From: a virus
Direction: 5' to 3' (one strand)
IMG/VR virus record: IMGVR_UViG_3300032309_001811
Location: 1 to 28,476 of that record
DNA length: 28,476 nt
Both the position numbers and the translations under genes were made by a program. Below, in pieces: positions 1,657 to 28,463 of the stretch (its first letter is position 1; every line of letters begins with the position of its first letter). The notes beneath the pieces are model-generated. The model did not search any database and was not told the DNA's origin. It worked only from the letters and a program-made list of their open reading frames with translations.

Positions 1657-2364
1657 GTGCCCCTTCCCTTTGTCACCGCTCCAGAGATCCGAGTTGAGCA
1701 GGTGGGGGATGAAACCACCGGCATCCTGCAGTTCCCTGTCTTCAATGCCCTGCTAGCTGGGGAGCGGATGTTACTCGATGAGATCGACTACCAAAGCACG
1801 GTGAATGAGCAGACCCACCGTCTGGCCAGCATCATCCGCGAGATGGACGATCTACCCGAGGCCGATGCCAACCTAGTGGCCGCTCGCCTCATGGCTAAGC
1901 ACATCGGCATCCCGGTGGTGCTGGAGGCATTAGAGGACACCATTCGGCAAAGGGAGCATCGGTTGATCCGTGAAATCGACAATCGCCTGTCCCTACAGAA
2001 CGAGGCCCAGGTGACCCGCCTTGTTACCGCCGCGATTGTCTACCGCCTCGGCAAGGTGGACCCTGATTGTGCTGTGTGGACCGATGACGACACCCGCAGC
2101 TTGACCGAGCCCCTCCGTAACGCCATCTACGCCTTCATGCTCAAAGAGCAGCGTGGTGGGGCGGCACCGGCTGATCCTGCGGCAGCGTTGCAGCTAATGG
2201 CTGACAGCCTGGGAAAGCCCAGCCTGCTCCCACCGACTGGGGAGCCATCTTCTGGCGCTTGCAAGATTTCTGGCCCCACAACCCAGACTTCAACCGAGAG
2301 CAATTCGCCTGGTGCCCCGAAACCGTCATCTGCTCGGCGCTTGAAGAAGGAGCCAAGCTCCTGA
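1657..2364 (+). CDS. Tail assembly chaperone, short form (gpG-like, unshifted product)
   Basis: A 235-residue protein starting at GTG 1657. Residues 1-190 are mostly helical, charged and well formed (for example DEIDYQSTVNEQTHRLASII). Beyond about residue 195 the zero frame becomes a Ser/Pro/Thr-rich, low-quality tail (SSARRLKKEPSS), as expected where the true coding frame changes. A GGGAAAG slippery heptamer in the correct phase at 2211-2217 lets some ribosomes move to the -1 frame, which stays open to 2909. This is the architecture of the G/GT tail chaperones of lambda-type siphoviruses, which bind the tape measure protein and recruit tail-tube subunits. The gene lies before the major tail protein rather than between it and the tape measure, as in lambda. 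Confidence 0.72.
   Translation: MPLPFVTAPEIRVEQVGDETTGILQFPVFNALLAGERMLLDEIDYQSTVNEQTHRLASIIREMDDLPEADANLVAARLMAKHIGIPVVLEALEDTIRQREHRLIREIDNRLSLQNEAQVTRLVTAAIVYRLGKVDPDCAVWTDDDTRSLTEPLRNAIYAFMLKEQRGGAAPADPAAALQLMADSLGKPSLLPPTGEPSSGACKISGPTTQTSTESNSPGAPKPSSARRLKKEPSS
2211..2245 (+). promoter_or_regulatory. Programmed -1 ribosomal frameshift signal
   Basis: In the zero frame the codons are CTG GGA AAG, giving the heptamer G GGA AAG (2211-2217), an X XXY YYZ site identical to the lambda G-T slippery sequence. Eight bases downstream, GCTCCC (2226-2231) and GGGAGC (2240-2245) form a perfect 6-bp GC-rich stem with an 8-base loop, at the usual distance for a stimulatory hairpin. The -1 frame is closed by stops at 2172 and 2202 but open from 2205 onward, so the signal lies at the start of the overlap. 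After the shift the next codon is GCC at 2217. Confidence 0.85.
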
Positions 2365-2909
2365 GGGAGCGACTGCACGCAGCAGAACGCCCGATCGCCA
2401 ACCTCCACGCCTGGTACGCGACCGCTCATCGGGACTCCGATCAACGCCGCGAACCGTTCTCGATGGAGGAGTTCTGTTGGTTCCTGCCGCCTAAAGATCG
2501 GGAGATGGGCCAGGCGCCCCCTTCTGCAGCCGGTGCAGCGATGCTGGCCCTATGCGAGCAACACCAGGTGCCAGGGTTTGCGATGGCCTTCTACGACGCC
2601 CTGGCCACTGCCGGGGAGGGAACGCCACCACCTTCACTGCTAGCCCTACTGGCAGAGGACGCCCTACTGCTCGCCCCGGTTGAACATCAAGACAGCTGGC
2701 GGGGGCTACTGCTAGCAGAGGACAGTGCAGGAGGACAAGAGCGAATCTTTAGGTTGGCGGATGATCCGCAGAGGTTGGTGACCCTGTTGGTGCCGATCGC
2801 TCCCGATGCCGCAATGCCAGCATGGGCGGCGGCAGATTCATGGCTGCCCATCGTTCGATCTCCCGGTAGCACACCTCCACTGCCTCCGCTGCTGCCTGAA
2901 TCGTTGTGA
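2217..2909 (+). CDS. Tail assembly chaperone, -1 frameshift extension (T part of GT fusion)
   Basis: This is the -1 frame read after the slippery site. It adds about 230 residues to the first 187 of the upstream frame, for a fusion of about 417 residues. The extension begins AQPAPTDWGAIFWRLQDFW and continues as a Trp-rich, helical, natural-looking protein (NLHAWYATAHRDSDQRREPF, EEFCWFLPPKD), supporting translation well upstream of the internal ATG at 2259. In lambda-like tails the T domain contacts the tube protein while G binds the tape measure. The last 50 or so residues overlap the antisense AP2 gene and end in a Pro-rich tail, so the functional domain may finish earlier. Confidence 0.72.
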   Translation, partial: AQPAPTDWGAIFWRLQDFWPHNPDFNREQFAWCPETVICSALEEGAKLLRERLHAAERPIANLHAWYATAHRDSDQRREPFSMEEFCWFLPPKDREMGQAPPSAAGAAMLALCEQHQVPGFAMAFYDALATAGEGTPPPSLLALLAEDALLLAPVEHQDSWRGLLLAEDSAGGQERIFRLADDPQRLVTLLVPIAPDAAMPAWAAADSWLPIVRSPGSTPPLPPLLPESL

Positions 2910-3012
2910 AGTAGCCCAGCGACCAGCGCCTCCCAGCCCACCACACGCGGGCTTGGTACGGGCGCCGGTTGGCGTGGGGGCAATGAGAAACGCCGCGAGG
3001 GTAAGAAGCCAT
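2749..3012 (-). CDS. Small AP2-domain DNA-binding protein (antisense)
   Basis: An 87-residue protein whose segment RPYQARVWWAGRRWSLGYF plus the following TTIQAAAEAV (about residues 17-45) matches the AP2/ERF-like DNA-binding fold: a three-stranded sheet with Arg/Trp contacts, a Gly-x-F/Y turn, then an Ala-rich helix. Phage AP2 domains are usually joined to HNH homing endonucleases; here no nuclease half is present, so this may be a free-standing regulator or a remnant. It runs opposite to the flanking late genes and overlaps the 3' end of the chaperone extension by 161 bases. A GGGAAAGCT leader element ends five bases before its ATG. Confidence 0.62.
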   Translation of the reverse strand: MASYPRGVSHCPHANRRPYQARVWWAGRRWSLGYFTTIQAAAEAVEVCYREIERWAAMNLPPPMLALRHRERSAPTGSPTSADHPPT

Positions 3013-3098: not shown

Positions 3099-3932
3099 AT
3101 GCCTCAAACTTGGGAACAGGCTTACGGATTTAGGTTTTTCTTTGTGCCGATGAAGGCGGCTTCAGTAGACCTGAGCACGGTGACCGGCGGCGGCCTCGGC
3201 ACCGGCAAATTCATCAACAACACCACCACGCAAAGTTCTTCCGCCACGGTGATCACCGCCGGAACCGGTGACACCTTTGCGCTCGGGGTCGGCACCAAGG
3301 CGATCACCAATGCTGCCCTGGCCTCCAACGTGGCTACCTTGACCTTCGCGGCTGCGCACGGCATTGAAGTAGGCAAGCGGATTGCCGTCAAGGATCTGCC
3401 TGCTCCCTTTACCAGCCTGAACGGTTCGTTTGTGGTGGCTTCGGTGACCACTTCCAGCCCGTTCACCCTGACTTACGCCCTGACCGGCACCAACGTCACT
3501 TCCGCTGCCGTGACTGCTGGTGTGGTGGCTCCCTCGCTGCTGCTCGATGGCACCGATGCTCCGTTCCGCCTGTTGGGACTGACCAACATCCAGCCGAACA
3601 ACAGCACCAACAAGGAAAGCGTCATCATTTACGATGACGAATCAGGTAGCTATGACACCCCGATTCCCCTTTCGCGCACCAAGGACTGGAGCCTGGAAGG
3701 TGCCATGAACTACGCCGACCCTGCTTGGCGGGCGATGCGCTTCTGCGAGGAGTACAACGTCAGCGAGAAGCTGATGGTGAAGTACGCCGTCATCGGCCCC
3801 AATAACGGCAAGCAGGTGGAGTACGGCTACGGGTTTTTTGAGAACTACCAGCCCCAGCAGACGGCTGGCACCGTGATCAAGTTCCAGGTGTCCATGGCCG
3901 GTTACGGCAAGGTGGGCCTCGATCTGCTCTGA
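3099..3932 (+). CDS. Major tail (tube) protein with inserted Ig-like domain
   Basis: A 277-residue protein. Residues 1-60 and 150-277 look like a siphovirus tail-tube subunit, with a beta-rich C-terminal half ending YGYGFFENYQPQQTAGTVIK and then a Gly-rich strand. Between them, about residues 68-143 (3300-3527), lies a separate Ig-like module: ITNAALASNVATLTFAAAHG, a turn, then FVVASVTTSSPFTLTYAL. A related module occurs in the decoration-like protein at 17762-18445. Ig-like inserts in tube and capsid proteins are displayed on the virion surface and often aid adsorption. Position after the chaperone and before the tail terminator and tape measure supports the tube role; no motif proves it. 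Confidence 0.72.
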   Translation: MPQTWEQAYGFRFFFVPMKAASVDLSTVTGGGLGTGKFINNTTTQSSSATVITAGTGDTFALGVGTKAITNAALASNVATLTFAAAHGIEVGKRIAVKDLPAPFTSLNGSFVVASVTTSSPFTLTYALTGTNVTSAAVTAGVVAPSLLLDGTDAPFRLLGLTNIQPNNSTNKESVIIYDDESGSYDTPIPLSRTKDWSLEGAMNYADPAWRAMRFCEEYNVSEKLMVKYAVIGPNNGKQVEYGYGFFENYQPQQTAGTVIKFQVSMAGYGKVGLDLL

Positions 3933-4313: not shown

Positions 4314-4592
4314 CTATGTCTCAGCACTAAACGGCTGACTGACCCGCTCCATGCGCTTGGCCCAGGTGTCGCCACCTTCGCGGCCCTTGCACGGGTTGAT
4401 GCAGGCGGGGTCGTTGACCATGTTGCAGACCAGGCCCGCTAGATCAAGTTCTGAGGCTTTCTTGCCGGTGCCTGACCAGTAGAGCTGCCCGTCAAGCCAC
4501 CGGGCGCCGCAGCGGGGGCAGGTGCGGGCTTCCATGGCAGCATCAGCGGTGGTTGCGGCAGGTTTCCGGTGCAGACGGGAAAGCTCAGACAT
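4314..4592 (-). CDS. Zinc-ribbon-like small protein (antisense)
   Basis: A 92-residue protein with CPRCGARW (about residues 24-31), then a conserved-looking core DLAGLVCN (about 50-57) and CINPCKGREGGDTWAKR (about 63-79). The CxxC plus C...CxxxC pattern is what a zinc ribbon would show. I recall similar small proteins with DLAGLVCN and EGGDTW from marine cyanophages, of unknown function. It is antisense to the late genes and lies in a gap with no plus-strand gene, after a terminator, consistent with an independently transcribed accessory (moron-like) gene. Its ATG (4592-4590) overlaps the ATG of the divergent gene at 4591 by two bases. Confidence 0.7.
   Translation of the reverse strand: MSELSRLHRKPAATTADAAMEARTCPRCGARWLDGQLYWSGTGKKASELDLAGLVCNMVNDPACINPCKGREGGDTWAKRMERVSQPFSAET
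4577..4585 (+). promoter_or_regulatory. Leader element GGGAAAGCT before the 4591 gene
   Basis: Copy of the recurring leader element, five bases before ATG 4591. It lies inside the first codons of the antisense zinc-ribbon gene, so it is shared by two reading frames. Confidence 0.5.
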
Positions 4593-5055
4593 GGCGCTAC
4601 CTAGGACCGCACAGGAGCTGTACGACCTGCTGATGGGCGATGCGGTGGTGGCAGCGGCGTTAGGCAGCTACACTCCTCGCGGCCAGAGCCCAATCCCTGC
4701 CATTGCAGTGGTGCGGCGCAATGAATCCCTGCCCGAGGGGCTGGCGGTGACCGGCCTGGAGGTGGTGATCCTCAACAACCCCGAATACACCACCGAGGCG
4801 ATGCTGACCGGGGAGCAGTCGCTGAACCCACAGTTCAGGTTGTATATCAGCGAGTGGTCACCGGCAAGCGACCTGCTGGCCCTCCAGGCGCTGACCCAGC
4901 GGATCATTGCCCTGTTGCCTGGGTGCCGTGCGATGCCGATCAGCGGTGATCAGCGCGGGCAAGGGGACCCGAACGGGCAGGGGATTGGGCTGCTCGATCA
5001 GTACGCCATCGCCTGGACCAACCCAGATCAGTACGTCGTGACACCAGGAAGCTGA
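4591..5055 (+). CDS. Putative tail terminator protein
   Basis: A 154-residue protein beginning MALPRTAQELYDLLMGDAVV. The N-terminal helix, a central beta section (GLEVVILNNP, FRLYISEW) and a later helix (LQALTQRIIALLPG) fit the alpha/beta fold of siphovirus tail terminators, which cap the tube during assembly. The reading frame is open from 4522, but the upstream part is antisense to the zinc-ribbon gene; ATG 4591, just after a leader element, is the better start. The stop is separated from the tape measure ATG by one base. Identification rests on size, predicted fold and place. Confidence 0.6.
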   Translation: MALPRTAQELYDLLMGDAVVAAALGSYTPRGQSPIPAIAVVRRNESLPEGLAVTGLEVVILNNPEYTTEAMLTGEQSLNPQFRLYISEWSPASDLLALQALTQRIIALLPGCRAMPISGDQRGQGDPNGQGIGLLDQYAIAWTNPDQYVVTPGS

Positions 5056-5056
5056 A

Positions 5057-8000
5057 ATGTCAAACGAATGGGTGATCAAGGTTACGGCCGATGTCAAAGG
5101 CGTGCTCGATGCCTCGCGGCAGATCGGGCAGGCGGGCAAGGCGGCGGGGCAGGAGTTCCAGTCAGGCTTTGCCGCTAATGACAAGCTGCTGGAGCGGCTG
5201 CGGAATCAGCTTAAGGAGCTGAGCCAGGGCACCAGTAGCAACGCTACCACCTTAGGAAGCCTGAAGGCCAAGCTCGGCGAGCTAGGCCAGACCCTGGATA
5301 AGGCTGCTATCGGCTCAAAGGAGTTCGTGGCGACTCAGAAGGAGATCGCCAAAACACAGCAGGAGATCAACGCAGCCCTTAAGGGATTCGGAGCTGGTGA
5401 GAAGACCATCAGCGGGCTTCGCAGTAAGATGGCTCTGTTGAATGAAACACTAGATCAGACGGTAATCGGGTCTGAAAAGTTTATTTCAACCCAGAAAGAG
5501 ATAGCACAAACGCAGGATAAGCTGAACACAGCGTTAAAAGGGTTTAGCAGTAATGAAAACAGCGTCCAAGGATTAACCAGTAAACTGAGTGAGTTAAATG
5601 CTGTATTACAAAAAGCCGAGATTGGCTCAAAGGAGTTTGTAGCTGCACAAAAAGAGATCACCCAGACACAAGAAAAGCTTAACGCAGCCCTGAAAGGATT
5701 TCAGGGTAATGAAAATAGTATCCAGGGACTAAACAATAAACTCACGGAGCTGAATGCCGTACTGCAGAAAGCCGAGATAGGCTCAAAAGAGTTTGTGGCT
5801 GCTCAAAAAGAAATAGCGCAGACACAGGAAAAACTTAACGCGGCTTTGAAAGGATTCCAGGGTAGCGAGAAAAGCATTGAAGGATTAAACGCTAAACTGG
5901 CAGAATACAACCAAGTTTTACAGAAGGCTGAGATTGGCTCAAAGCAGTTTGTGACTGCTCAGAAAGGAATAGCTAAAACACAGCAAGAGATTAACACAGC
6001 ACTAAAAGGGTTTGACGGCAACGAGAAGTCAATTCGGGGATACAGAGATCGACTGTCAGAGCTGAACCTGACGCTGGAGAAATCCGTAATCGGCTCAAGA
6101 GAGTTTAAGCGGGCGCAACAAGAAATTGCAGTAGCTCAAAAGCAAGTTGATAACGCATTAGGTCAAACCAGCCTGGCGGCTAAGGCTCTTAGCGCGGTGC
6201 TGACGGGACTGGGTGCCATAGGGGTTGGGGCTGCAGTAGTCGGGTTCTTAAAGGACTCAGTTACCAAAGCTGTAGAGCTGGAGACGATCGGCCGAAAGCT
6301 CTCTAACACCCTTGGCCCGCAAGGTGCAGCCGGGGCCCTTGGGTTTGCCCGTCAAACGGCCGACTCACTAGGCCTGTCGTTTAAGGACCTGGCCAACAAC
6401 TTTGGCAGCTTCACAGCAGCGGCAACGGCTGCCGGGGTGCCCCTCCAACAGCAAAAGGATCTATTCGGAGCAGTGGCCAAGGCTGGGCAGGCGCTGGGCC
6501 TCTCCAATGAAGAGATCAGCGGCAGCCTTCTGGCCCTCCAGCAGGTGGCCTCAAAGGGCACCGTGTCGATGGAGGAGCTGCGAGGGCAGCTCGGAGAACG
6601 TTTGCCGATTGCCTTAGCCGCTACTGCCAAGGGGCTTGGGATTAGCCAACAGGAGCTGATCAAACTTGTCGAGTCGGGTCGGCTTACCTCTACCGAGTTC
6701 TTCCCGGCCATAACCAAGGGCTTAAACGAACTCACGGCAAGCGCGGGCGGGGTGCCCACGGCAGCGCAGAACTTTGCCAAGCTGCAAAACGCTTTTGATG
6801 ATCTTCAGGCCAGCTTTGGAACCAGCCTGCTGCCTACGGTTACCCAGCAAGTGTCGGATCTAGCCGGTGCCCTAGAAGGGTTGAAGGTTGATACATCGGC
6901 AAGGGACTTGCGTCAGTCGTTTGGCTTAACGGCAGATGAAGCAACGCAGCTAGTTGGTGTCCTTAAAAACATCAGCAAAGAGTTTGGCGTAAGCGATCAA
7001 CAGGCAAAGAACCTGCTAAGCAGAGCTATTGCCAATACAGGCGCTAGCCGTGATTGGTTTGGTGAATTAAACCTAGGCGGCGAACAGTTTACACAAATAC
7101 AAACTGAGATCCGAACACTAGCGAAAGACTTTGTATCAACGCAGCGGGACATCCTTGGTGAAACCAATGCCGTCAGTGCAGCCGAGAGTGCCCGACTGAC
7201 GAAGGCAAAAGAGCAAAACGCGGAAAAAGCCAAGGAGCTGGTAACACAGGCGCAGCTAGCAGAAGCGGTAGGAAAAACACTGCAAGCGGAGGCCAGTGGG
7301 CGTGTTTCCGTTCAGCAGGCTAGCGTTAATCTTGGCCAAGCTCTAATCAACCTAGAAGATTCACGCTTTAACATTATCCGCAATCGCAACAGCTTTGAGC
7401 TGAAAGACGCCCAGGACCGAAAGGCAAGCGAAGCGGAGCTAGATGCAATCAAGCGCAAAGGTGAAGCAATCGAGCAAGCGGCGCTGAACTTTAAGTTTAC
7501 GGCACTAACCCAACAGCAAACCCTGCAGAGGGACTTGGTATCCTTACAGCAACAACAGGCCACACTAGAAGCCAATCTGGCATCAAGCACAGCAAGGATA
7601 GAAGTAAAGAAAGCGGAGCTAAAGCTAGAGCAAGCCTCTATTACGGGTAATGCCGAGGCTAGAAAAGAGGCAGAGCTTGGGCTGCAAATTGCTCAACTGG
7701 GCTTAAACGCTGCTGATACCAAGCTACAGATTCTGGCTAAGACTCAGCCTATTGAGGATCGGATCGCCAACGCCAACAATCAAACAGCCCGCAATGCAAT
7801 CATCGCCGAAGCCGCTAGCAAGGGGCTGGCTCTGGCAGCAGATGGCACTTTCCAGAAGGTGAAGGGCACCGCCGACCAGTTCAAGAGCGTCGGCGACTCC
7901 CTGAAGGTGCCCCTTGCTCAGCAGGGTGCTTTCGCCCAGTTGGCTAAGGATGTGGGCCTACGGGTGCGTGATACCGGCAGGGGCTACTACGAGATTGGGC

Positions 8001-9499
8001 AGGCCCTGGGCAAAGGGGTAGGGCCCGCTTCAAATGACATTAAGAACTTTATGGGCGTGGCTGCTAAAGCTACGCAAGGGGCCAAGACGCAGGCATCAGG
8101 ACTGGCCAGCAATATGGACAGGGCTGCAGATTCCGCCGATAGTTTCTACCGCTCCCTGGCGGCGGCTTCCGGCCTCCCCCCTTCCCGCTTTATCGGTGGC
8201 CCGGTCGATGCTGGTCAGACCTACCGGGTGAACGACGGTCCTAGTGGCCTCTCCCTTGGCCAGGAGGCGTTCTTGTCCGCTTCCGGTGCCTTGTCGTTGA
8301 TCAACAAGCCAATGAACACCCTCTGGACGGCCCCCTCCCGTGGCACGGTGATCCCTGCTGCAGTGACCAGCCGCCTGAAGGAATCCGGAGTTCTAGGCGG
8401 TGGTGCTGGTAAGTCCTACAGAGTGAGCAACGGCCCGAGCGGTATGCCTTTCGGGTATGAGGCGTTCCTTTCGGCATTGCGTGCCCTTTCGCTGATCAAC
8501 AAGCCGCCGAGCAGTTTGCGGGAAGCACCTTCCCATGGCACGGTGGTTCCGGCCAATGTAACCACCCGCCCGAAAGAACCCAGTCCCATCAGCGGTGGCG
8601 TCGATCAGGCCTCTAAATTCATGCCCTCTGCTGATGGACCCCACCCTGCCCGCTTCACGGGTGGCCCTGTCAACGCTCGCCAGATCGTGCGCATAAACGA
8701 CGGCCCCAGCGGTTTATCGCTGGGGCAAGAGGCGTTCCTTTCAGCCTTCGGTGACCTTTCGTTAATCAACAGACCGCCAAACAGCCTGTGGCAGGCGCCT
8801 TCCCGTGGCACGGTGATTCCCGCTGATGTGACCGCCCGCCTCAAAGAGTCCGGGGTTGTAGGTGGTGGCGCTAGCAAGACCAACCGAGTGAACGACGGCC
8901 CAAGCGGCATGTCGCTCGATCAAGAAGCATTCGTGTCATCCTCCGGCCTCCTGTCGCTGATCAACAGGCTGTGGCAGGCTCCATCCCGAGGCAATGTGAC
9001 TCCTGCCGGTGCCACCAGCCGTGCGAAAAAGCCCGAGGAAAAAGGCGATGGTGCGAACCGGCCCTACCGATCCCCGGCGCCTGCTGCTGGACTCGCCCCT
9101 GCTCGATTCGCGGGAGGTCCTGTCAATGCTGGCCAGACCTACCGGATCAACGATGGCCCGAGCGGCGCAAGCGTCGATCACGAGGCTTTCCTGTCAGCTT
9201 CTCGCGCCTTGTCGCTGATCAACAGACCCATCAGCAGCCCATGGATACCCCCCTCGCGTGGCACGGCAATCCCGGCCAACATCACCAGCAGCCCTAAAGA
9301 TTCCAAGGCCCAGCAGGGCGGCGGTGCTGGGGTGCTGCGTGGTGGCTCTGACCCGGCGATGGCGCATCTGGCCCTTGCTGTTGGAAACCTGAGCCAGGAA
9401 GTGGCTGAGCTGAGGCAGAAAGCGTGGAACGTGTCGGTCGGGGTGCGCGGCGATGGGAGCGGCCTGAAGCTGGCGCAGACGATGGCGCGGATGCGTTGA
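5057..9499 (+). CDS. Tail tape measure protein
   Basis: A 1480-residue protein and the longest gene here. Residues 1-68 are an N-terminal segment; 69-375 hold six 52-residue coiled-coil-like repeats; 372-400 are hydrophobic (AVLTGLGAIGVGAAVVGFL). About residues 420-600 carry the conserved tape-measure N-terminal region, with the diagnostic GTVSMEELRGQLGERLP followed by GISQQELIKLVESG. A long helical section follows, then five repeats ending near 1415, and a final helical tail. Tape measure length sets tail length; at the rule of thumb of about 1.5 angstrom per residue this implies a tail near 200 nm, less if the repeats fold compactly. It acts with the G/GT chaperone. Confidence 0.95.
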   Translation: MSNEWVIKVTADVKGVLDASRQIGQAGKAAGQEFQSGFAANDKLLERLRNQLKELSQGTSSNATTLGSLKAKLGELGQTLDKAAIGSKEFVATQKEIAKTQQEINAALKGFGAGEKTISGLRSKMALLNETLDQTVIGSEKFISTQKEIAQTQDKLNTALKGFSSNENSVQGLTSKLSELNAVLQKAEIGSKEFVAAQKEITQTQEKLNAALKGFQGNENSIQGLNNKLTELNAVLQKAEIGSKEFVAAQKEIAQTQEKLNAALKGFQGSEKSIEGLNAKLAEYNQVLQKAEIGSKQFVTAQKGIAKTQQEINTALKGFDGNEKSIRGYRDRLSELNLTLEKSVIGSREFKRAQQEIAVAQKQVDNALGQTSLAAKALSAVLTGLGAIGVGAAVVGFLKDSVTKAVELETIGRKLSNTLGPQGAAGALGFARQTADSLGLSFKDLANNFGSFTAAATAAGVPLQQQKDLFGAVAKAGQALGLSNEEISGSLLALQQVASKGTVSMEELRGQLGERLPIALAATAKGLGISQQELIKLVESGRLTSTEFFPAITKGLNELTASAGGVPTAAQNFAKLQNAFDDLQASFGTSLLPTVTQQVSDLAGALEGLKVDTSARDLRQSFGLTADEATQLVGVLKNISKEFGVSDQQAKNLLSRAIANTGASRDWFGELNLGGEQFTQIQTEIRTLAKDFVSTQRDILGETNAVSAAESARLTKAKEQNAEKAKELVTQAQLAEAVGKTLQAEASGRVSVQQASVNLGQALINLEDSRFNIIRNRNSFELKDAQDRKASEAELDAIKRKGEAIEQAALNFKFTALTQQQTLQRDLVSLQQQQATLEANLASSTARIEVKKAELKLEQASITGNAEARKEAELGLQIAQLGLNAADTKLQILAKTQPIEDRIANANNQTARNAIIAEAASKGLALAADGTFQKVKGTADQFKSVGDSLKVPLAQQGAFAQLAKDVGLRVRDTGRGYYEIGQALGKGVGPASNDIKNFMGVAAKATQGAKTQASGLASNMDRAADSADSFYRSLAAASGLPPSRFIGGPVDAGQTYRVNDGPSGLSLGQEAFLSASGALSLINKPMNTLWTAPSRGTVIPAAVTSRLKESGVLGGGAGKSYRVSNGPSGMPFGYEAFLSALRALSLINKPPSSLREAPSHGTVVPANVTTRPKEPSPISGGVDQASKFMPSADGPHPARFTGGPVNARQIVRINDGPSGLSLGQEAFLSAFGDLSLINRPPNSLWQAPSRGTVIPADVTARLKESGVVGGGASKTNRVNDGPSGMSLDQEAFVSSSGLLSLINRLWQAPSRGNVTPAGATSRAKKPEEKGDGANRPYRSPAPAAGLAPARFAGGPVNAGQTYRINDGPSGASVDHEAFLSASRALSLINRPISSPWIPPSRGTAIPANITSSPKDSKAQQGGGAGVLRGGSDPAMAHLALAVGNLSQEVAELRQKAWNVSVGVRGDGSGLKLAQTMARMR
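5261..6180 (+). repeat. Six 156-bp (52-residue) repeats in the tape measure N-terminal part
   Basis: Each unit follows the pattern LxxKLxELNxVLQKAEIGSK, then EFVAAQKEIAQTQEKLNAAL, then KGF and a Gly-rich linker. Units start at residues 69, 121, 173, 225, 277 and 329; the sixth is divergent. Units 3 and 4 are nearly identical. Unit 1 uses GC-rich codons like the rest of the backbone, whereas units 2-6 use AT-richer codons (AAA, GAA, TTT, ACA). Confidence 0.93.
8183..9300 (+). repeat. Five repeats in an A-B-A-B-A order, tape measure C-terminal part
   Basis: Common core: YRVNDGPSGLSLGQEAFLSA, then LSLINKP, then APSRGTVIPA. A-type units start with ARF-x-GGPVNAGQ (near 8183, 8644 and 9097); B-type units start with GVLGGGAGK or GVVGGGASK. 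The higher-order A+B period is about 455-460 bp. A single GGPV...GTVIP motif is common near the C-terminus of tape measure proteins; five copies is unusual. Confidence 0.92.
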
Positions 9500-15871: not shown

Positions 15872-16672
15872 ATGTCCAAGCGATGGTTTGAACAGCTCCA
15901 GAGCCCTGAGCCTGGCAGCGAAGGTGGTGCTGGTGTTGGCAGTGCTGCAGGTGCAGGGCTGGGGGTCACTGATCCCGCACCCGGCAACAGCGAAGGCGAA
16001 GGCGAGGGCGATGACCTCTCCCGCGTCAAACATGCCCTGCAGCGTGAGCGGGAGGCCAACCGCGAGAAGGAGCGCCGCATGGGTGCCCTAGAGGCGCAAC
16101 TGCGGGAGCTGAGCACAACCAACCCCGAAGCGGTGCGGGCGGCTGAGGCTAAGGCCCTAGAGGAGCAGACCCGGCGAGAACTGATCGAGCAGCAGGCACG
16201 CCTGGAGCGCGAGCAGATCGAGTCCAAATACTCCGCCCAGCTTCAGCAGGCAACCACTGAGCTGGTCGCCGAGCGCGAGGCCCGTCAACGGGAGCTGGTG
16301 CGGCAGCAAGCGGAGAAGGCTTTCATCGGCGCTAAGGGCAGCATGGAGGCCAGCACCATTGACGGTTCAACGCCCTTTGATGCGGTCTGGTTCCGGTTTG
16401 GCGCCAACTTCCGCATTGAAGACGGCGCTCTGGTTGTCGTGGATGCCAAGGGCAATCCTGAAATTGACTCCGAAACCGGCAAGCGGTACGAGCCGACCAA
16501 GTGGCTGAAGCGGCTGCAGACCGATCCGGTTTGGGGTCGCCATTTTGAGCCATCCATGGGCAGCGGTGGTGGTGCCCGCAACGGTCGGGATGGCCGTGCC
16601 TTTGCCGGGAAGGACCTGATGTCCCAACCGCTCAACTCCTTGTTCTCTGATGCCTTCGGAGGCGCGGCTTAG
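15872..16672 (+). CDS. Capsid scaffolding protein
   Basis: A 266-residue, highly charged protein directly upstream of the major capsid gene. Residues 1-50 are Gly/Glu/Ala/Pro-rich and acidic; about 50-150 form a long coiled-coil (ALQREREANREKERRMGALE and onward, ending near RELVRQQAEKAF); about 150-220 form a globular part (FDAVWFRFGANFRIEDGALV); the tail is Gly-rich and ends LMSQPLNSLFSDAFGG. Acidic, coiled-coil proteins with a short C-terminal capsid-binding motif next to the capsid gene are the hallmark of phage scaffolds, which shape the prohead and are then lost. No protease motif is evident. Confidence 0.82.
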   Translation: MSKRWFEQLQSPEPGSEGGAGVGSAAGAGLGVTDPAPGNSEGEGEGDDLSRVKHALQREREANREKERRMGALEAQLRELSTTNPEAVRAAEAKALEEQTRRELIEQQARLEREQIESKYSAQLQQATTELVAEREARQRELVRQQAEKAFIGAKGSMEASTIDGSTPFDAVWFRFGANFRIEDGALVVVDAKGNPEIDSETGKRYEPTKWLKRLQTDPVWGRHFEPSMGSGGGARNGRDGRAFAGKDLMSQPLNSLFSDAFGGAA

Positions 16673-16678
16673 GGGCTC

Positions 16679-16687
16679 GGGAAAGTT
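16679..16687 (+). promoter_or_regulatory. Degenerate leader element GGGAAAGTT in the capsid gene leader
   Basis: One-base variant of the recurring leader element (GTT instead of GCT) in the 139-base gap between scaffold and capsid genes, far (124 bases) from the capsid start. A TAAGCCG copy lies at about 16719. Confidence 0.35.
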
Positions 16688-16708
16688 CGGGCAGCAGGAA
16701 CCGGCGGC

Positions 16709-16783
16709 GGCGTGATGCCTAAGCCGGTTCCAAATCAATCAGCCAGGCGTGATGCCTCGCGGTGAATCAACTGGCGTGATGCC
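16709..16783 (+). repeat. Three GGCGTGATGCC repeats in the capsid gene leader
   Basis: Exact copies at 16709-16719, 16746-16756 and 16773-16783 (start-to-start 37 and 27 bases). The 11-mer is a near-palindrome (its reverse complement is GGCATCACGCC). Each carries GTGATGCC, so each could also open a mini reading frame (MPKPVP..., MPRGES..., MPPPTF...), the last two ending at the TGA just before the capsid gene. Whether DNA-binding sites, leader peptides or RNA elements, they occupy the whole gap between scaffold and capsid genes. Confidence 0.85.
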
Positions 16784-16811
16784 ACCCCCGACCTTCATTT
16801 GATTTCCACTC

Positions 16812-17723
16812 ATGGGACTCACCATTCTGGAGGCCGCCAAGACGGAGACTGATCCGCAACGGGTGGCCGTAATTCGTGAGCTTGCCGAAAGCGAGCTGAT
16901 CAGCATCATGCCGTTCCGCAATGTGCAGGGCGGTCTGGACTACGCTGTGGAAGCCGAGCTTCCCGCCGTTGGCTTCCGTGGGTACAACGAGACCTACGAC
17001 GAGTCCTATGGCGTCATCAATCCCCAGTATGAGCGCCTGAAGTTCTTCGGTGGCGACATCGACGTTGACATTCAGCGCATCAAGAACTACGGCCCTCAGG
17101 CCAAGGCCGAGCAGATCCAAATGAAGGTGCGCTCGCTGCGCCTGACATTTGAAGAGCAGGTGATCAACGGCGACGAGTCGGTTGATGTCCGCGCTTTCGA
17201 TGGCCTGAAGACACGGATCAACGTCGGCAGCTCTCAGGCTGTCAACGTGAACGGCGCCCTGTCGCTGACAGCTCTCGATGAGCTGATTGATGCGGTGGAT
17301 GGCGACAACAAGATCCTGCTGATGAACAAGAAGATGCGTCGGCGCCTTTCGGCTGCCAGCCGCAACACCTCCATCGGTGGCTTCATGTCCTACGAGCAGG
17401 ATGCTTTTGGTCGTCGGGTGACCATGTACAACGATGCCCGCATTGTTGTGACGGACACCAACGCCCAGAACGTGCAGATTCAAGGTTTTACCGAAACCTC
17501 CAGCTCTACCAGTATCTACTGCGTGGCGTTTGGCGATTTGCAGACCACCGGCATCCAGGGCCCTGCGGCTGCTGGCTACGGCATCGACATCAAGGAGTTC
17601 GGCGAAATCGCTGAGGCCCCTGTTGATCGAACTCGCATTGATTGGTCAATCGGCATGGCGATCATGAATGGTCGTTCTGCTGCCCGTGCCTACGGAATCA
17701 CCGATGCTGCGGTGACCGCTTGA
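16812..17723 (+). CDS. Major capsid protein (HK97 fold)
   Basis: A 303-residue protein resembling a known group of HK97-fold phage capsid proteins: an N-terminal helix (ILEAAKTETDPQRVAVIREL), then ELPAVGFRGYNETYDESYGV with INPQYERLKFFGGDIDVDIQ, then a central helix-rich part including ALSLTALDELIDAVDG and LLMNKKMRRRLSAAS, and a C-terminal strand section (VDRTRIDWSIGMAIMNGRSA). These correspond to the E-loop/spine and A-domain order of that family. The short length and absence of a large N-terminal delta domain agree with use of a separate scaffold. It follows the scaffold gene, as expected. Confidence 0.92.
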   Translation: MGLTILEAAKTETDPQRVAVIRELAESELISIMPFRNVQGGLDYAVEAELPAVGFRGYNETYDESYGVINPQYERLKFFGGDIDVDIQRIKNYGPQAKAEQIQMKVRSLRLTFEEQVINGDESVDVRAFDGLKTRINVGSSQAVNVNGALSLTALDELIDAVDGDNKILLMNKKMRRRLSAASRNTSIGGFMSYEQDAFGRRVTMYNDARIVVTDTNAQNVQIQGFTETSSSTSIYCVAFGDLQTTGIQGPAAAGYGIDIKEFGEIAEAPVDRTRIDWSIGMAIMNGRSAARAYGITDAAVTA

Positions 17724-17761: not shown

Positions 17762-18445
17762 ATGTCTCGTTCTACTGGTCTTGCCCCTCGGCGGGGCTAT
17801 CAACTGGATGCTGAAACCATCCTGCTGGGCGCCGTTAAGGCTGGCGCCCGTGGCCGCGCTGCGGAAACCCGCACTGGTGCTGCCCGTCTGCTGCAGACCA
17901 ACCTGGCTGCCAACGATAATCTCAAGCTCATCGTTGCCGGTGGCTCCAGCAACTCCGCTGGCGGCTACATCCTGCAGGCTGCCCATGTTGCTGAGGGTGC
18001 TGCCCTTAGCTCTGCTTCTTCCTATGCAAACATCGCTGTGGTTACCGCCAGTGCTGGCGTGATCAACGAGGCGGGAGTGACCGGCAAGGAAGTCCGCGAG
18101 GCCGTCCGGGTTGCAGGTTCGGTCAGCGGTGATGTGCGGGTTGCTGCTGTCCGGGTTCGCCCTGGCACCGGCACTCTGACGATCAGCAACGTGGCGCTTA
18201 CCACCAACGTGGCAACGATCACGCTGAGCGCCGCTCACACCATGCTGGTGGGTGAGATCGTCACCGTGGGTTGCTCCAACCCCCTGGTGAATGGCACCTT
18301 TGCCATCAAAGCGGTGACTTCTACCACCTTCACCTACGACTCGGTTCAGAGCAACATCACCAGCGCCTCGGCGACTGGCACCGTGACCAACGGCGCTGCT
18401 GCGCCGGTCGGGACCAACACGGTGGCCCTGGTTCCTGGCGACTGA
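17762..18445 (+). CDS. Probable capsid decoration/head protein with Ig-like domain
   Basis: A 227-residue protein just downstream of the capsid gene. Residues 1-130 are Ala/Gly/Val-rich, with an N-terminal RSTGLAPRRGYQLDAETILL. Residues 137-209 (18170-18388) form an Ig-like module, LTISNVALTTNVATITLSAA, turn, then VNGTFAIKAVTSTTFTYDSV, clearly related to the insert in the tail-tube protein at 3300-3527. Genes in this place often code for head decoration or fibre proteins displayed on the capsid surface. A weak GAGG precedes the ATG. A terminator follows the stop by about 25 bases, closing the head unit. Confidence 0.62.
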   Translation: MSRSTGLAPRRGYQLDAETILLGAVKAGARGRAAETRTGAARLLQTNLAANDNLKLIVAGGSSNSAGGYILQAAHVAEGAALSSASSYANIAVVTASAGVINEAGVTGKEVREAVRVAGSVSGDVRVAAVRVRPGTGTLTISNVALTTNVATITLSAAHTMLVGEIVTVGCSNPLVNGTFAIKAVTSTTFTYDSVQSNITSASATGTVTNGAAAPVGTNTVALVPGD

Positions 18446-25202: not shown

Positions 25203-25422
25203 CGACTAGGTTGGGAATACGATATTCGCGAGATTGACGAGGATTTGTATCTTGCCGTCTTGGCCTGCCGTCTCGGGGAAAAAGGTGCCTCTGACAGGGT
25301 TCTCAGCGATGTAGCCTCCGTATCTCAGGGACAGGAAGGGACAGAAAGGGACCCCTAAGCCGTAGGTTATGCACGGCCCGTGCATCGCGCATAGGTCGGC
25401 ATCACGGACGCGTCGTATTCCC
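25203..25422. promoter_or_regulatory. Integrase control region with palindromes and direct repeats
   Basis: A 220-base region with no convincing gene. It holds GAATA-CGA-TATTC (25215-25227), decamer repeats GGGACAGGAA and GGGACAGAAA followed by GGGAC (25328-25352), a TAAGCCG (25355-25361), a palindrome with perfect 8-bp arms, ATGCACGG-C-CCGTGCAT (25369-25385), and GGCATCACG (25398-25406), which matches 9 bases of the inverted capsid-leader element. Position between divergent genes and directly before the integrase suggests operators and possibly arm-type integrase sites or attP. No -35/-10 pair of good quality was found. Confidence 0.45.
25369..25385. repeat. Perfect 8-bp-arm palindrome before the integrase gene
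   Basis: ATGCACGG and CCGTGCAT around one central C, 37 bases before the integrase ATG at 25423. A dyad of this length fits a dimeric repressor site or a recombination core. The ATG at 25369, inside it, opens a longer integrase frame but is unlikely to be the start. Confidence 0.85.
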
Positions 25423-26427
25423 ATGGCCTCGATTAACTCGCAACGCGGTCGGCTCTACCTGCTGGCCAACCTGCCCCGCCGTGATGGGGCTCCAGGGCTG
25501 CAGCAGTCCCGCATTGCCCTCAAGCTCGATGACACCCCGATTAACCGCCGCACCGCCGCGAAGCAGCTTCAGACCCTGGAGCGGCAGGTAAAGGAGGGCT
25601 CCTTCACCTGGGCCTATTGGCTTGATGAGCAAGCGGGCCCGATCACCTGGCGCGAGGCCATCGCCAAGCTCTACCGGGCTCGGGTGGTGCTGGGCCGTAC
25701 GGGGGAATCAACCTGGCAGGTGAACTACCTCGGACGGCTGCGGCAGGTTCCGCAGGGGGGCGCCTGCACTACAGCCAGCATGGCTAAGGCCCTGGAGCGG
25801 TACGACCGGAGGACCTGCTCCTACAAGGAGTTGTATTACCTACTTCGGCACCTGTCCAAGCTGGTGGCGGTGCCGTTCCCAGAGGTGCCGGTGCCCACCT
25901 ACAGCCAGGCTGAGCTGGTGGCGGTACCCAGCGATGCCGAGATCCTTGGCTGGGTCGAGGGGGCGCCGGAACCGGTGCGCTGGTACTGGGGAATGATGGC
26001 CACCTACGGACTGAGGCCCCATGAGATCGAGGGGGCGACGTTGATCGAGCGGGATCTGTGTCAGGTGGCAGACGCGACAAAAACGGGATTCAGGACTGTG
26101 GTGCCGTTACCCCGCGAATGGGTCGAGCGGTTCGGGTTAAGGGAGCGGCGCCTAAGGCCCCGGCTGGAGGGCAGCACCGATCGCCCTGATGCGGTGTCCA
26201 AGTGGCTTAACAAAGAGCTGAGGCGGCAGGGGCTGCCTTGGCGTCCCTACTCCCTGCGCCATGCTTTTGGCGGCAGGTTATGGCGGGAAGGTGGCAGCAG
26301 GCTGGATGTTTACACCGCTGCTCGCTTGATGGGGCACACCCCGACGGTTCATGCCAAAACCTACCGTGCACACATCCAGCCTCATCAGGTAGCCGAGGCG
26401 GCCGAGCGGGCGCTAGCGGGGCTTTAG
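25423..26427 (+). CDS. int: Tyrosine recombinase (phage integrase)
   Basis: A 334-residue integrase from ATG 25423 (MASINSQRGRLYLLANLPRR). Residues 1-65 are the arm-binding/N-terminal part, about 70-155 the core-binding helices, and about 165-334 the catalytic domain. Catalytic residues: Arg198 (ATYGLRPHE), Lys220 (DATKTGFR), Arg279 and His280 (PYSLRHAFGG), His305 (RLMGHTP) and nucleophile Tyr314 (AKTYRAH). Tyr replaces the first His of the HxxR box, as in many cyanobacterial integrases. All key residues are present, so it should be active, and the phage temperate. The frame is open back to 25369, but that part covers the palindrome. It converges with the next gene by 15 bases. Confidence 0.93.
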   Translation: MASINSQRGRLYLLANLPRRDGAPGLQQSRIALKLDDTPINRRTAAKQLQTLERQVKEGSFTWAYWLDEQAGPITWREAIAKLYRARVVLGRTGESTWQVNYLGRLRQVPQGGACTTASMAKALERYDRRTCSYKELYYLLRHLSKLVAVPFPEVPVPTYSQAELVAVPSDAEILGWVEGAPEPVRWYWGMMATYGLRPHEIEGATLIERDLCQVADATKTGFRTVVPLPREWVERFGLRERRLRPRLEGSTDRPDAVSKWLNKELRRQGLPWRPYSLRHAFGGRLWREGGSRLDVYTAARLMGHTPTVHAKTYRAHIQPHQVAEAAERALAGL

Positions 26428-27096: not shown

Positions 27097-27735
27097 TTAA
27101 GCCGTTGGCCCCGCTTTCGTAAAGCCGCTGCTTCCGTTTCGTAACGCATCAAGCCAGACCACCGTTTCCAGTCCGGTGACCCAAGGCACGGTGCAGGCGT
27201 CCGGGTCGTGCTCGGTGGTGATGACCCCGAGCGGCGAGGCCCAGATCAGGAGGGGGCGGGCGATCACCGATCGGAGCTGATCGGATGCCATCACCAGGGC
27301 TCCGCCAAGAGCAGCAAGCCAGGGCTCGGGGATTGTGGTGGGCTGCGCCTGGGTAATCAGCAGAGCAAGGCCCAGAGCGTCATCGGGGAACCGCAGCAGC
27401 AGATCAGCGGTTGTAGCGACCCGAGCGCGGCGATCGGCGAGGTGTAAGGGCGCAGCGATGATCTGCGCCTCGTCCCACAGGCTCCAGGAGGCCAGCGCAG
27501 CGATGGTGCGGTTGATCGGATCGTTCCCCCCGCTGAAACGCTCAACAGGCCCTCCTGCTGCCCTCTGGCGGGCCATGCGAGCAAAGGCGCGGCGGACGGT
27601 GCCGTTGGGCTGGCGGATCGGCTGATCGGGGTAGAGGGTGGCCGCCACATCGGCCACCGTGCGCCCGATCATGGCGCCGCTTCGATGTTCGTAGATGCCG
27701 GGGATCGGGGTGGGCTTGCAGGTGGGGGTAAACAT
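27097..27735 (-). CDS. Early protein of unknown function
   Basis: A 212-residue, mostly helical protein. The frame is also open from a GTG at 27738, but the ATG at 27735, which overlaps the methyltransferase stop by one base (TGATG), is preferred. Residues 1-60 (IPGIYEHRSGAMIGRTVADV, then ATLYPDQPIRQPNGTVRRAF) look like a compact, perhaps nucleic-acid-binding head; the rest is Ala/Leu-rich and helical (LLLRFPDDALGLALLITQAQ, LAALGGALVMASDQLRSVIA). I do not recognise the family. Coupling to the methyltransferase points to a shared early role, for example DNA modification or its regulation, without direct evidence. Confidence 0.55.
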   Translation of the reverse strand: MFTPTCKPTPIPGIYEHRSGAMIGRTVADVAATLYPDQPIRQPNGTVRRAFARMARQRAAGGPVERFSGGNDPINRTIAALASWSLWDEAQIIAAPLHLADRRARVATTADLLLRFPDDALGLALLITQAQPTTIPEPWLAALGGALVMASDQLRSVIARPLLIWASPLGVITTEHDPDACTVPWVTGLETVVWLDALRNGSSGFTKAGPTA

Positions 27736-28463
27736 CACCGGCCCCCCATGGAACCGGCCAGCTCCAGCACCCGCGCCAGCGGCACCATGGCCACCTGCGG
27801 GACCACGGCATTGCCCAGCGCCTTCAGGCGGTCCATCCAGGCGGGAATCCCATCAGGATCTCCACGGAATCGGGGTGAGCTACCAGGGGGTCCGTTGGTG
27901 AGGTCCGCAACCCCTCGACTAAACGAGACATCCGTGAGTCCTTGCTGCCAAGAAACCGCGTCCGGGAGGTGCCCTTGTATTCGGTAGCTGCTGGGGTAGG
28001 CAACTGCCCACCACCGATCACGAAGGTGCCAAGCTCCAAGATCGGCAGCCGATAGGCATGCCCATTCGCAGTCATACCCATTCGCGGCCAGCTCTCCGAC
28101 CACGGTTCCCAGGTGTCCGTCAAGGATCGCTGCCACATTTTCCAGGACGATGAATCGCGGTCGTACCAGGCAAACGACTCGGAGGAGTTGATAGAACAGG
28201 CCGGAACGGGTGTCATGTCCCAGACCACGGCGGGCGCCCGCTTTTGATAGGTCTTGGCAGGGAAAGCCGCCAACCACAACGTCGGCTGCTCCACGCTCTG
28301 GGCTGAAAGTGCAGATGTCATCGTGAATAGGGACGCTGGGCCAATGTTTGGCGAGGATGCGCTGGCAGAACGGCTCGCGCTCCACGAACTGCACGGTTTC
28401 GATCCCACCAAGCCAGCGAGCGGCAAGGCTGAAGCCGCCGATACCGCTGAAGGTGTCAATCAT
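27735..28463 (-). CDS. DNA C5-cytosine methyltransferase
   Basis: A 242-residue enzyme transferring a methyl group from S-adenosylmethionine to C5 of cytosine. Motifs in order: I, DTFSGIGGF (3-11); II, VEREPFC; III, DDICTF; IV, GGFPCQDLSKAG with catalytic Cys69; VI, ENV (108-110); VIII, RDRWW (148-152); X, LGNAVVP (216-222). The target-recognition region between VIII and IX/X is only about 60 residues, short for the family, as in other phage enzymes. No restriction nuclease accompanies it, so self-protection of phage DNA is the likely use. The frame stays open from ATG 28463 to the window edge, so a slightly longer N-terminus cannot be excluded. Confidence 0.92.
   Translation of the reverse strand: MIDTFSGIGGFSLAARWLGGIETVQFVEREPFCQRILAKHWPSVPIHDDICTFSPERGAADVVVGGFPCQDLSKAGARRGLGHDTRSGLFYQLLRVVCLVRPRFIVLENVAAILDGHLGTVVGELAANGYDCEWACLSAADLGAWHLRDRWWAVAYPSSYRIQGHLPDAVSWQQGLTDVSFSRGVADLTNGPPGSSPRFRGDPDGIPAWMDRLKALGNAVVPQVAMVPLARVLELAGSMGGR

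Follow-up and report, generated by a model that had tools for sequence, protein, structure and literature searches.

A putative lambda G/GT-type tail assembly chaperone pair, joined at a conserved slippery heptamer, ahead of the tail tube gene in cyanosiphoviruses

Two overlapping frames at the locus

We analysed the whole 28,476-base virus record IMGVR_UViG_3300032309_001811 (the window), in which two overlapping reading frames meet at a slippery heptamer and probably encode a tail assembly chaperone pair of the phage lambda G/GT kind. The zero frame, which encodes the G-like part, starts with GTG at 1657 and stops at 2362-2364, and the −1 frame, which encodes the T-like part, is open from 2205 and stops at 2907-2909 (Table 1). 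As 187 residues lead up to the site and 230 follow it, the G-T fusion would be 417 amino acids long. The G-like gene shows a coding-type codon-position pattern and is 62-97% identical to its homologues in the IMG/VR relatives and about 30% identical in the cyanophage PSS2. The 230 residues of the −1 frame form a conserved domain, with no start codon ahead of the conserved part. The original prediction, made from the sequence of the window alone, that the −1 frame, opening at 2205, stays protein-like for about 230 residues thus stands, while its statement that the zero frame degenerates after the site is only partly right, given the constant tail described below.

At the junction, the zero frame reads CTG GGA AAG, which places GGGAAAG in phase with the GTG-started frame, as had been predicted. 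The in-phase heptamer is present as a single copy in the 5477 codon positions of the 13 main open reading frames (ORFs), and its chance expectation within the overlap is 0.006.

Table 1. Features of the proposed chaperone locus and of its expected partner genes in the window.
Feature	Position	Strand	Basis or remark
Zero-frame gene, G-like	1657-2364	+	187 residues to the slip site, then a 48-residue Ser/Thr/Pro-rich tail
Slippery heptamer G GGA AAG	2211-2217	+	Phase with the zero frame, homologous heptamers, frozen codons
−1 extension, T-like	2217-2909	+	230 residues, readable only as a G-T fusion
Hairpin	2226-2245	+	6-bp stem, 8 nucleotides past the slip site
Tail tube gene	3099-3932	+	phrog_38654, E 9.4e-31; expected partner of T
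Tape measure gene	5057-9499	+	PF20155 TMP_3, E 1e-28; expected partner of G

Conservation of the junction

In order to follow the junction in relatives, each frame was searched separately in IMG/VR, which gave 27 and 68 loci, and alignment searches added about 30 further divergent loci. Among the close relatives, 55 of the 56 distinct loci holding the junction carry GGGAAAG and one carries GGGGAAG, and the matches to G and T nearly always adjoin at an identical base; in the few loci where they are offset, the cause is an alignment edge next to a 3-base deletion or, in L010, a broken T frame. The tblastn searches also matched the cultured cyanophages PSS2, S-CBS2, and S-CRES1-3, which share a homologous T part and, by alignment, a homologous G part. 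In the four of these phages whose junctions were read, an in-phase heptamer lies at the same junction as in the window, with identical phase: GGGAAAG in PSS2 and S-CRES3, and AAAAAAG in S-CBS2 and S-CRES2. Altogether, a canonical in-phase −1 heptamer is found at the homologous junction in 76/79 distinct T-encoding loci, down to about 30% protein identity (53 GGGAAAG, 20 AAAAAAG, 2 GGGAAAA, and 1 AAAAAAA). The three exceptions are L069 (GGGGAAG), L104 (GGAAAAG, read by eye), and L086, whose contig begins inside T. The use of both GGGAAAG and AAAAAAG at one site argues that the slipperiness itself is selected. One scan of bacterial genomes found no relatives in prophages.

The codons at the site are frozen. 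Across 50 relatives, CTG is invariant in 50, GGA in 49, and AAG in 50, and the codons immediately ahead of and within the site show a synonymous difference of 0.054, as compared to about 0.25-0.47 for the rest of the gene. Judged by these comparisons, the slip site is under strong selection. An overlap of two open frames could in itself be a sequencing error or the mark of a pseudogene, and nothing beyond this bare overlap speaks for such an origin. The same overlap recurs in the same phase in 79 independent records, including those of cultured phages, and the substitutions in both frames follow a coding-type pattern; the relatives rule this explanation out.

Could T instead be a separate gene that starts alone, either coupled to G or independently, with the heptamer being incidental? 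The GenBank records of PSS2, S-CBS2, and S-CRES do annotate two separate genes, with no frameshift and with the T start placed too late; a TTG lies at 2259 in the T frame of the window, and S-CRES3 has a T-frame start codon 18 codons upstream. In most relatives, however, the first T-frame ATG, GTG, or TTG comes about 82 codons into T, within conserved sequence, and in 73/79 relatives the match begins over 10 codons ahead of the first start codon; the heptamer is conserved in 76/79. An independent T start appears to be absent in nearly all relatives, and we regard separate genes as hardly credible. Relatives encoding the two frames as separate genes with independent starts and no heptamer, an arrangement named beforehand as telling against frameshifting, were not found. 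The comparisons strongly support −1 frameshifting in a pair of the G/GT type, and from them we infer the slippage itself.

The downstream hairpin

The heptamer is followed, after the spacer CCCAGCCT (2218-2225), by a hairpin with the stem GCTCCC (2226-2231)/GGGAGC (2240-2245) and an 8-nucleotide loop. The original prediction of a perfect 6-bp stem at eight bases is correct, while its role as a selected feature is not borne out. When the synonymous codons were redrawn with the T-frame protein kept, the stability of the hairpin showed no excess over these controls (mean z = 0.06 for 30 distinct downstream sequences), and the stem is broken in the relative L075; the hairpin was rejected as a selected stimulator on these grounds. 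The stem largely follows from the encoded residues, with Pro/Ala codons facing Trp-Gly codons. The hairpin may still help slippage. Rfam and tRNA scans gave no match.

The zero-frame tail after the site

Beyond the site, the zero frame continues for 47-48 Ser/Thr/Pro-rich residues in the clade of the window and for 39-47 residues in the PSS2 types, while in the S-CBS2/S-CRES types, which use AAAAAAG or GGGAAAG, the stop lies right behind the site and only 0-7 residues follow. The position of the stop is constant in 55/56 close relatives of the window's clade. Among 149 reconstructed synonymous changes, none created a zero-frame stop, versus 2.7 expected (Poisson about 0.07), the synonymous changes per codon in the tail region number 3.1 versus 4.5, and Leu/Val codons preceding A are never G- or A-ended, all of these being counts that are non-independent because the sequences are related. 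Codons 50-90, outside the tail, have a similarly low synonymous rate, which weakens the case. These patterns are no more than suggestive of a selected peptide. A tentative and on balance unlikely extension is that the Ser/Thr/Pro/Lys-rich tail of 39-48 residues in the clade of the window and in PSS2, overprinted on the start of T, is kept by selection, which would yield two alternative C-terminal chaperone domains, and that the displaced gene allows separate dosage. If true, the displacement would let the phage set the chaperone dosage apart from those of the tube and the tape measure.

Identity of the two parts

The profile search that had been proposed was run with the G part and with the −1 extension. 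The T part of the window matches phrog_34388 (E 1.9e-30), a family of unknown function, as do the T parts of all 38 members tested. Sub-threshold matches to PF06223 Phage_tail_T were obtained in 7/38 alignment members, the best being that of PSS2 (E 6.4e-4, 20.5 bits versus a cut-off of 25.9), and the S-CRES homologues are annotated as tail assembly protein. The search returned no family for G, and against viral proteins G gave weak matches only, such as that to the frameshift protein G of Xylella phage Sano (E 0.76). The structure of G was predicted from the single sequence, with a predicted local distance difference test (pLDDT) score of 50, and from an alignment, with a pLDDT of 74.7. The latter model, of moderate confidence, consists of a beta-hairpin followed by helices and has no significant PDB match. 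Ion-channel helices were discarded as the fold of G, as their VIA-align Z scores, up to 6.6, are at the level of common helix arrangements.

Gene order and interpretation

All long relatives examined have connector-like genes first, then G/T, tube, and tape measure, so that the placement of G/GT before both the tube and the tape measure, first noticed in the window, is shared by the whole group. The cultured cyanophages likewise have the chaperone before the tube, and the S-CRES3 tube homologue passes the PF06199 tail tube cut-off. The usual flanking of the chaperone by the tube and the tape measure, which does not strictly define such pairs, is found neither in the window nor in any long relative examined. 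Since the order is common to all of these relatives, the displacement is a property of the group rather than of one genome. PSS2 differs in its distances: the chaperone lies at 34.5-35.8 kb, the tube, about 17 kb downstream, at 53.2 kb, and the tape measure at 54.1 kb. The position of the chaperone ahead of the tube in all of this cyanosiphovirus group means that it need not adjoin the tape measure gene.

In the window, the interval between the tube (3932) and the tape measure (5057) holds a gene of 90 amino acids, an antisense zinc-ribbon gene, and a gene of 154 amino acids (4591-5055), and no other G/GT candidate. The homologue of the last gene precedes the tube in the S-CBS2 types and follows it in the window types; its earlier label as the tail terminator was not confirmed.

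A frameshifted pair might serve another role than that of a tail chaperone, for example in head-tail joining: G has no family match, and the gene follows head-tail connector-like genes without adjoining the tape measure gene. The resemblance of T to Phage_tail_T in relatives, the annotation of the S-CRES homologues, and the lack of a competing candidate between the tube and the tape measure all speak against this role, which we give only an outside chance. We infer the chaperone role on three grounds: the frameshift arrangement, the likeness of the T domain to Phage_tail_T, and the location in the tail module.

Several observations weigh against the assignment to the lambda G/GT kind. The G part lacks any Pfam, PHROG, or PDB sequence match and resembles no known chaperone family or solved fold in the searches made. 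The T part of the window itself has no Phage_tail_T match, and the matches of its relatives all fall below the Pfam cut-off. Two relatives, L069 and L104, have non-canonical sites, and the hairpin shows no sign of selection other than that on the encoded protein. The conserved heptamers, the scarcity of independent T starts, the frozen codons, and the sub-threshold Phage_tail_T matches support the original prediction, and we put the probability of a lambda G/GT-type chaperone pair with a −1 frameshift at G GGA AAG at about 0.92.

We propose the following model. Most ribosomes would translate the zero frame from 1657 to its stop, producing a G-like protein of 235 amino acids—187 residues plus the 48-residue tail. 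In a minority, the two tRNAs on G GGA AAG would slip in tandem into the −1 frame, and translation would continue to 2909, producing the G-T fusion of 417 residues. If the pair works like that of lambda, the G part would coat the tape measure protein, and the rarer T part would recruit the tube subunits. The lambda precedent is that gpG attaches to the tape measure and that gpGT uses its T domain to bind and recruit the tube (PMC5009743).

Neighbouring genes

Approximately the last 53 codons of T are overlapped by an antisense ORF of 87 amino acids (2749-3012, − strand). This ORF looks AP2-like and corresponds to the C-terminal portion of HNH endonuclease families (phrog_99, E 2.1e-5); as the substitution pattern in the overlap switches to its frame, it is a real gene. 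The S-CBS2/S-CRES types differ in having a full-length HNH gene antisense after T, at the matching spot.

The tube protein contains an N-terminal insert (about residues 60-140) that lies outside the tube matches in the cultured relatives and resembles a repeat at 17762-18445; both match phrog_9998. In its N-terminal part (5057-6170, + strand), the tape measure protein contains about six tandem repeats of ~55 residues (GSKEFVAAQKEIAQTQEKLNAALKGF..., read in translation). The zinc-ribbon-like gene (4314-4592, − strand; phrog_484, E 1.4e-33), flanked by the small gene and the putative terminator, occurs in many relatives but is missing from others, and the local spacing varies by kilobases, which suggests an insertion hot spot.

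Downstream of the tail genes, at 15872-17723 (+ strand), are the genes for the scaffold (phrog_206) and for the major head protein (phrog_212, E 3.9e-66). The same holds for the major head genes of S-CBS2 and PSS2, the cultured phages where this was checked, and in six long IMG/VR relatives the major head homologue lies outside the fetched tail loci. The group thus has an unusual head-tail gene order. Near the right end are a tyrosine-integrase-like gene (25369-26427, + strand), with weak PF00589/PF12167 matches below the cut-off, and a C5-cytosine DNA methylase gene (27735-28463, − strand; PF00145, E 4.4e-33); together, they point to a possible temperate phage.

Implications and comparison with known systems

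Through this analysis, hypothetical proteins of a cyanosiphovirus group, namely phrog_34388 and the partner encoded upstream of it, gain a likely function, and the T starts in the PSS2, S-CBS2, and S-CRES records are corrected. The analysis also indicates that a G/GT pair can persist outside its usual gene neighbourhood, 17-18 kb from the tube and the tape measure in PSS2, with the slip site strongly selected. This bears on annotation by position and on models that couple the doses of the chaperone, tube, and tape measure. Our literature search, which was incomplete, found no paper on a frameshift in this phage group or on a chaperone gene before the tube, and the evidence for novelty is weak because of this incomplete coverage.

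How does the pair compare with known systems? In phage lambda, the usual order is tube, G, T, and tape measure. TP901-1 has the usual order as well, and its slippery sequence is likewise GGGAAAG (PMC4493119). As compared to lambda gpG/gpGT and TP901-1 gpG/gpT, the pair described here precedes the tube gene, is followed by an antisense HNH/AP2-like gene after T, has a G part without sequence or fold match to known chaperones, and retains a 48-residue tail past the site in its zero-frame product.
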